Part shown: positions 37,199-38,708 of the stretch, in pieces
Layout: each line of letters begins with the position of its first letter
Position numbering within the stretch: the stretch's first letter is position 1
Source: Prochlorococcus marinus XMU1412
Lineage (GTDB): Bacteria > Cyanobacteriota > Cyanobacteriia > PCC-6307 > Cyanobiaceae
Direction: 5' to 3'
NCBI RefSeq assembly: GCF_017696315.1
Contig: NZ_JAAORJ010000002.1
Location: 186,001 to 250,000, forward strand
DNA length: 64,000 nucleotides
Translations under genes and position numbers: made by a program
The notes under the pieces: generated by a model
Database searches by the model: none
The model's input: only the letters and a program-made list of their open reading frames with translations
What the model was told of the DNA's origin: nothing

Positions 37199-37207
37199 TG
37201 CTAGAAT
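37199..37207 (+). promoter_or_regulatory. Extended -10 promoter for rpsB-tsf
   Basis: The extended -10 sequence TGCTAGAAT (TG at 37199, TAGAAT at 37202-37207) would start transcription near 37214. This places the whole pseudoknot-forming leader (37227-37290) inside the 5' untranslated region. No clear -35 box is visible. Confidence 0.5.
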
Positions 37208-37226
37208 AGTTGGAATAAATTTCACA

Positions 37227-37290
37227 CATCTGACAGTTTCGGGTGAATTATTAATATTAATTCCCCGTCAGATGGAGGCTAACCCGAAAC
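37227..37290 (+). promoter_or_regulatory. rpsB leader pseudoknot, candidate ribosomal-protein autoregulatory element
   Basis: Three perfect helices can form in the 5' leader. P1 pairs CATCTGAC (37227-37234) with GTCAGATG (37267-37274), P2 pairs GTTTCGGGT (37236-37244) with ACCCGAAAC (37282-37290), and P3 GAATTA (37245-37250) with TAATTC (37258-37263). P1 and P2 cross, making a pseudoknot with P3 nested inside its middle loop. It ends 12 bases before the rpsB start codon and hides a GGAGG (37274-37278). In Escherichia coli, S2 represses rpsB-tsf through its leader; a similar role is inferred here. Confidence 0.7.
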
Positions 37291-37302
37291 CCTTTTTAAA
37301 TT

Positions 37303-38007
37303 ATGGCTGTTGTATCGCTATCAGAAATGATGGAAGCTGGTGCTCATTTTGGGCATCAAACTAGACGTTGGAATCCAAAGATGTCTAAGTATATATATTG
37401 CGCTAGAAATGGAGTTCATATTATTGATCTTGTAAAAACAGCATTGTGTATGAACAATGCATATAAGTGGACAAGAAACGCTGCAAAAAGCGGTAAACGT
37501 TTCCTATTTGTCGGTACAAAAAAACAAGCATCAGATGTAGTAGCTCAAGAAGCTACACGGTGTGGAGCTGCATATGTAAATCAAAGATGGCTTGGAGGGA
37601 TGTTGACTAATTGGACAACAATGAAAGCTAGGATTGAAAGATTAAAGGATCTAGAAAGAATGGAAAGTAGTGGTTCAATAGCAATGAGGCCTAAAAAAGA
37701 AGCTGCAGTATTAAGGAGAGAACTTGAAAGATTACAAAAATACTTAGGTGGACTTAAGGGTATGAGAAGATTACCAGATGTGGTTGTATTGGTTGATCAG
37801 AGAAGAGAATCTAATGCAGTATTAGAAGCTAGAAAATTAGACATCTCATTAGTATCAATGTTGGATACAAATTGCGATCCGGATTTGTGTGAAGTTCCAA
37901 TCCCTTGTAACGATGATGCCGTTAGATCTGTGCAACTTATTTTAGGAAGACTTGCAGATGCCATAAACGAGGGTAGAAAGGGCTCAAATGCCGAAAGAAA
38001 AAATTAA
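37303..38007 (+). CDS. rpsB: 30S ribosomal protein S2
   Basis: The 234-aa protein has the S2 signatures: [17 protein letters not shown] near the N-terminus and the internal [10 protein letters not shown] segment. S2 binds late in 30S assembly on the platform side. tsf follows after 44 bases in the order typical of bacteria. The leader upstream carries the pseudoknot described separately. Confidence 0.98.
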
Positions 38008-38051: not shown

Positions 38052-38708
38052 ATGGGAAACATTACAGCAAAACTTGTAAAAGATCTTAGAGACAAAACTG
38101 GCGCAGGAATGATGGACTGCAAAAAAGCACTTAACGAAACTGAAGGAAATCTAGATAAAGCTTTGGAATGGTTAAGAAAGAAAGGCATAGCCAGTGCTGA
38201 AAAGAAATCGGGAAGAGTAGCGGCCGAAGGGTCAATTGGTAGTTATATACATACCGGATCAAGAGTCGGAGTTTTACTAGAGTTAAATTGTGAAACTGAT
38301 TTTGTTGCTAGAGGTGATATATTCCAATCTCTGTTGAAGGATGTCTCAATGCAAGTAGCAGCATGCCCAAATGTTGAGTATGTATCAATTGATGAAATAC
38401 CAGAAGATGTTGTGGAAAAAGAAAAGCAGATTGAAATGGGTAGGGATGATTTATCTGGAAAACCAGAACAAATTAAAGAAAAAATAGTTGAAGGGAGAAT
38501 AGCAAAAAGACTTAATGAGCTTGTTTTGCTTTCACAACCCTACATTAAAGATAGTTCTCTAACAGTTGAGGATCTTGTTAAACAAGCAGCTGCAAAAATT
38601 GGGGAAAATATCAAAGTGAGACGCTTTACAAGATATACGTTGGGTGAAGGTATCGAAAAAAATCAGATGGACTTTGCTGAAGAGGTCGCATCAATGCAAA
38701 CAAACTAG
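38052..38708 (+). CDS. tsf: Translation elongation factor Ts
   Basis: The 218-aa protein has the N-terminal UBA-like motif [20 protein letters not shown] and the core N-C-E-T-D-F-V-A-R. This matches cyanobacterial EF-Ts, which lacks part of the longer E. coli C-terminus. It catalyses GDP release from EF-Tu. It is cotranscribed with rpsB. Confidence 0.97.

Follow-up and report, generated by a model that had tools for sequence, protein, structure and literature searches.

The closest described system is the rpsB motif, which Meyer et al. (2009) present as a stem P1, a hairpin P3 and a pseudoknot formed between J2-3 and a 3' extension of P1 (PMC2704228). According to the account of the motif in that report, the motif precedes rpsB in the majority of Alpha- and Gammaproteobacteria, in Cyanobacteria, in some Firmicutes and in a few other groups; P2 is absent or has at most three pairs in Cyanobacteria, P3 typically has at least four, and the pseudoknot has five pairs outside Firmicutes (PMC2704228). 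For E. coli, the relevant part of a recent review states that surplus S2 represses rpsB-tsf translation via the leader with the assistance of S1, and describes the details of this repression as unclear (PMC10931766). Repression of rpsB-tsf by surplus S2 in E. coli is also given by Meyer et al. (PMC2704228). The words uS2 and cyanobacteria are absent from a 2020 survey of ribosomal leaders (PMC7247131).

We analyzed a pseudoknotted element located ahead of rpsB-tsf in a 64,000-nucleotide stretch of Prochlorococcus marinus XMU1412 DNA, which is referred to below as the window. The original prediction held that its shape may be undescribed. This part of the prediction fails, as the topology upstream of rpsB is given in the motif description of Meyer et al. 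(PMC2704228), where Cyanobacteria are listed among its holders. Since the rpsB motif, as given there, was described in 2009, the element in the window is of a known kind that has been published for the phylum, and it is not a discovery. With a probability of roughly 0.85, we consider it to be a 5' leader of the rpsB-tsf mRNA that belongs to the rpsB motif and that, by analogy with E. coli, would be repressed by S2.

Structure and setting of the leader

The three helices of the element are exact Watson-Crick helices on the forward strand, and the observation of a three-helix pseudoknot is confirmed. P1 joins 37227-37234 (CATCTGAC) to 37267-37274 (GTCAGATG) in 8 pairs, the pseudoknot joins 37236-37244 (GTTTCGGGT) to 37282-37290 (ACCCGAAAC) in 9 pairs, and P3 joins 37245-37250 (GAATTA) to 37258-37263 (TAATTC) in 6 pairs. 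The features shared with the rpsB motif are the location directly upstream of rpsB (identified by TIGR01011), a P1 stem, the absence of P2 with one base (A37235) separating P1 from the pseudoknot strand, a P3 hairpin, and a pseudoknot that joins J2-3 of the motif, here the 5' strand 37236..37244, to the sequence extending P1 on its 3' side. The difference lies in the length of the pseudoknot, which has 9 pairs in the window compared to the five that the motif description gives outside Firmicutes.

As claimed originally, 46 of 64 bases take part in the helices, the pseudoknot ends at 37290 with 12 bases left before the rpsB ATG (37303), and upstream of the element a -10 box extended by TG, TAGAAT, ends at 37207. 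The genes that follow on the same strand encode the 30S ribosomal protein S2 (rpsB, 37303..38007; TIGR01011, 326.2 bits) and elongation factor Ts (tsf, 38052..38708; TIGR00116, 226.9 bits). The TAGAAT sequence (37202..37207, forward strand) was found by a consensus scan only, which returned 4 promoter-like sites in 401 bases compared to 1.6 in shuffles; it is presumably the promoter of rpsB-tsf, and transcription would start near 37213-37215. In 45 of the 46 genus loci described below, TTGCTA or TTGTTA occurs no more than 34 nt upstream of CACA.

Conservation begins four bases before P1, at CACA 37223. The corresponding CRCA (37223..37226, forward strand) forms the first four columns of alignment A1, described below; most A1 rows keep it, L188 and L201 do not, and it is present in E. 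coli. Between P1 and the pseudoknot strand lies a conserved GGAGG (37274..37278, forward strand), 24 nt upstream of the ATG and complementary to the 16S 3' end (CCUCC), which occurs in 45/46 genus and 96/106 family loci and is also found in the E. coli leader; GAGG at this place is conserved as well. Inspection of the leader by eye for mimicry of 16S rRNA gave no grounds for a claim. A loop stem at P3 of at least 3 bp in 46/46 genus loci and of at least 4 bp in 106/106 family loci is weak evidence, having no chance control. The nested fold of 37213-37302 has an energy of -20.9 kcal/mol (z -2.73), with 3 of 200 shuffles equally low. In the minimum-energy nested fold, the CCC between P3 and P1 (37264..37266, forward strand) could pair with GGG 37241-37243 if the pseudoknot is open.

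In the window, the bases separating the pseudoknot from rpsB (37291-37302) contain no Shine-Dalgarno-like site. Likewise, GGAG, AGGA or GAGG 3' of the pseudoknot core was found in 0/152 genus and family leaders; the other 45 parsed leaders (44 from Cyanobacteriia, plus L073, which is not a class member) all have one of them. Since a Shine-Dalgarno-like site precedes only 2 of 51 long open reading frames in the window, compared to 10% of random positions, the lack of such a site before rpsB is part of a wider habit and nothing special to this gene.

Distribution among Cyanobacteria

To assess the distribution of the leader, DNA upstream of rpsB was taken from 211 genomes, comprising 46 from the genus (including the window), 106 from the rest of the family and 59 from elsewhere in the phylum, 45 of the latter belonging to the class Cyanobacteriia and 14 lying outside it. 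These loci are part of the matches obtained, with 80/101, 120/121 and 145/146 genomes matched in draws that overlap. The leader precedes rpsB in 46/46 genus, 106/106 family and 45/45 other Cyanobacteriia loci, i.e., in all 197 class loci taken. A strict pattern that needs CGGGT and ACCC matched 46, 105 and 43 of these, respectively, and missed 17 of the 211 loci, namely the 14 from outside the class (0/14) together with L115, L188 and L201. The last three were matched by the covariance model R1, but all three are among its training rows; L115 and L201 were also captured by the looser parse described below. In L188 (162-224, reverse strand), L201 (309-369, forward strand), L218 and L219, class members from two other families, GTTG or GTTT stands in place of GAGG after P1, and P1 and the pseudoknot core are retained.

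R1, a model that leaves the pseudoknot out, was built from 70 cyanobacterial sequences, and its E-values are rough. It gave one strong match in the window, at 66.4 bits and itself a training row, the next best being 9.7 bits (E 1.4). Among 290 genomes of the class, 245 had exactly one match each and 45 were unmatched. Re-examination of 12 of the latter revealed the element before rpsB in 11 and one assembly without an rpsB match; the element is also present in two further unmatched genomes, G139 and G302 (loci L037 and L188). In the ten best-scoring genomes present in both genome sets (G265, G222, G275, G267, G329, G259, G285, G241, G316 and G300), the R1 match lies directly 5' of rpsB. Outside the class, R1 gave one weak match in 14 loci (L062, 16.2 bits, E 0.018) and left the other 13 unmatched. 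Three of these loci, L063, L067 and L076, unmatched by R1, have CACA-P1-GGCGGAGG-like leaders in which no ACCC strand was visible by eye, as if the pseudoknot had been lost.

Covariation of the helices

The original prediction called for compensatory changes in both crossing helices. A looser parse, which accepted cores with 12 or more of 17 positions paired and with loops no longer than 75 nt and which favours paired rows, yielded 75 distinct cores; among the 197 parsed leaders, all but L201 and L083 reached 12 paired positions. Alignment A1 (70 distinct sequences) omits seven of the 75 (L033, L073, L094, L114, L152, L157 and L197), uses the window in place of L001, adds L188 and L201, and has one row, L191, one base off register. 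In A1, 94.3% of the cells hold standard pairs compared to 85.0% after shuffling (0/500 as high), and 11 of the 17 pairs show changes on both sides compared to 6.7. The whole-structure covariation score was 0.328, compared to 0.159 in shuffled (0/500 as high) and at most 0.091 in slid alignments. The number of further pair types was less striking, at 27 compared to 23.5, with 9/500 shuffles as high. Most of this signal is carried by P1, which covaries strongly: changes in this helix are compensated, with both sides changed in seven of its eight pairs, and 97.9% of its cells are paired. Among the other 45 leaders, five (L074, L075, L083, L184 and L201) were assigned only 2-5 P1 pairs by the automatic parse, and 7-8 were counted in them by eye; the low counts are due to a shifted register. 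In the genus, one locus lacks one pair in P1 and, likewise, one locus lacks one pair in the pseudoknot, uncompensated in both cases.

For the pseudoknot, the expectation was borne out in part. All nine pairs are kept in the genus (45/46 loci) and the family (105/106 loci; 150/152 together), whereas the outer one to four pairs are unconserved in other Cyanobacteriia, and thus the nine-pair form is lineage-specific, i.e., picocyanobacterial. An extended alignment including E. coli, A2, was not used for counts, its 3' pseudoknot strand being misregistered in some rows. For this reason, its 79 rows (the 70 of A1, eight more divergent leaders and E. coli) were re-anchored by script on GGGT and ACCC or ACTC, which favours rows with those letters and left none of the 79 unparsed; the eight leaders came from 11 new loci, of which L221, L224 and L225 were left out for their long loops. 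The innermost five pairs are standard in 79/79 rows, and pairs 6 to 9 in 70, 66, 60 and 47 of them, respectively. Pair 5 is C-G in 75 rows, U-A in three, all from one genus and maybe a single event, and G-C in E. coli. The locus L042 has an uncompensated C-A in the pseudoknot. The core pseudoknot is nearly invariant and most of its pairs never vary, and therefore its support consists of a few compensated changes together with the invariance of both strands.

Alternative explanations

Crossing helices may arise by chance in AT-rich DNA, and when composition is disregarded, exact 8-base stems do cross frequently here, at 8 places in the window and at least once in 46 of 60 shuffles (up to seven times). 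However, if both exact stems must have eight or more pairs, of which four or more are G-C, the window contains a single crossing, and 1 of 200 shuffled windows contains one. Chance was already refuted by the covariation, and the presence of the leader before rpsB across the class, with R1 matches in most class genomes, argues in the same direction; a chance origin, rejected on the shuffled-window count and covariation, has next to no probability. It is also very improbable that the element acts as a free small RNA, like t44/tff as listed in E. coli. The annotation of E. coli tff as a putative small RNA and the Rfam type of t44, an sRNA gene, speak for this, but the pseudoknot core lies only 9-24 nt from the start codon in 197 parsed leaders, and the part of the review that treats the E. 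coli element places it in the rpsB 5'UTR (PMC10931766).

A more serious alternative, although we regard it as unlikely, is that cyanobacteria have no feedback by S2 and keep the structured leader for mRNA stability, translation enhancement or ribosome standby. The identity of the ligand does not follow from conservation by itself, the internal GGAGG complementary to the 16S 3' end would suit such a role, and no cyanobacterial S2 experiment was found among the papers listed in literature searches; on the other hand, both the anatomy and the conserved letters match the S2-responsive leader of E. coli, and the element stands directly 5' of rpsB in the ten genomes compared. Another possible lead, and a lead only, is a bistable switch in which the P1 5' strand (37227-37233) pairs with the GGGUG strand (37239-37245), so that a hairpin forming first as the RNA is transcribed would be the ON state and S2 would drive the RNA to the pseudoknot; this hairpin (37227-37245) and the pseudoknot are mutually exclusive. 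A terminator scan reported the hairpin unprompted, and five pairs with GGGUG are kept by 61 of 62 distinct P1 strands, with pyrimidines at P1 positions 3, 4 and 5 in 62, 62 and 61 of 62 and free variation at positions 7-8. However, at -6.5 kcal/mol the hairpin is less stable than P1 with P3 (-12.0), P1 position 6 is a purine in 60/62 (A in 19) although the hairpin has no need of one there, only three such pairs are possible for the P1 strand of E. coli, and a requirement of S2 for a purine-rich strand would account for the same bias. Such a switch therefore appears quite improbable.

Proposed mechanism

The reading that we prefer, an S2-repressed leader of the rpsB motif, is well supported as a leader by the sequence comparison, and repression by S2 through it is the most likely form of control by analogy with E. 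coli. In the proposed mechanism, P1 would form as a stem with the P3 hairpin in its loop, and the linker strand between P1 and P3 would pair with the sequence 3' of P1 to give the pseudoknot that ends 12 nt upstream of the AUG. When S2 exceeds the assembling 30S subunits, it would bind and stabilise the folded leader. The 3' strand of the pseudoknot, 37282..37290, corresponds to positions -21 to -13 relative to the start codon, and these positions lie within the footprint of an initiating ribosome. Because the fold would occupy the region that the starting ribosome has to cover, rpsB translation would drop and, via rpsB, the expression of tsf as well. That S2 binds, that the pseudoknot represents the OFF state and that tsf is affected are inferences from the E. 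coli system.

The picocyanobacterial S2 leader may also be a distinct variant, in which the nine-pair pseudoknot at -21 to -13 would directly block initiation that proceeds without a Shine-Dalgarno site, a competing 5' hairpin together with GGAGG would be the ON state, and S2 would turn the leader OFF. No earlier description of a nine-pair pseudoknot, a leader without a Shine-Dalgarno site or a possible competing hairpin was seen in the literature consulted, and this variant as a whole is doubtful. Prochlorococcus, few of whose genes in the window have a Shine-Dalgarno-like site, offers a test of S2 repression without one.

Comparison with Rfam models and the E. coli leader

The Rfam family RF01815, 'rpsB', is, from its name, likely the Rfam form of the motif of Meyer et al. 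It gave no match among those listed in the window stretch (E up to 10) and no match at rpsB in 13 genus genomes, and it scored below its cut-off of 40 in 20/20 relatives; the best cyanobacterial score seen was a sub-threshold 28.5 bits, at locus L211. Its sub-threshold matches overlap those of R1 in 5 of 7 non-genus relatives (G358, G359, G361, G362 and G363). The Rfam family t44 (RF00127) matched the window at 37205-37284 with 26.9 bits (E 0.0007) in a permissive 251-base search, which does not reach its curated score of 44. Whole-genome searches with t44 under strict filters gave 0/146 matches among genomes of the phylum, and the search of the window's own genome returned a sole match elsewhere and missed the element. 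The sole Rfam family above cut-off in the window is Yfr17 (RF02365; 4235-4499, 108.6 bits). These searches point to a gap in annotation: both Rfam models, taken at their curated scores, miss the cyanobacterial copies searched, and R1, from 70 sequences, finds most of them.

In the reverse direction, R1 matched the E. coli leader (L212 278-354, 25 bits, E 7.1e-5 over 18 sources), where the match overlaps the annotated tff (213-348) just upstream of rpsB (375). In the same locus, the rpsB-tsf spacer (L212 1186-1295) matches Rfam CssrA (RF02798) with 136.2 bits. The relation to the proteobacterial leader, another feature shared with the rpsB motif, is thus seen from both sides, by R1 in E. coli and by t44 in the window. 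The original prediction of a pseudoknotted rpsB-tsf S2 leader has comparative support, and the element is a relative of the region through which S2 acts in enterobacteria.

The E. coli tff/t44 leader and the window share the order CACA, 8-pair P1, GGGUG, P1', GAGGC and UAACCC. In E. coli, these are represented by CACGTATC/GATACGTG as the 8-pair P1, GGGGUG, and GAGGC-UAACCCC. The E. coli leader differs in its loop, in the greater distance from P1 to the pseudoknot strand, and in its pseudoknot, which has 5 pairs (GGGGU/ACCCC) compared to 9 in the window. The architecture of the S2 leader is common to all class Cyanobacteriia loci taken and to E. coli, and S2 feedback is therefore probably ancient.
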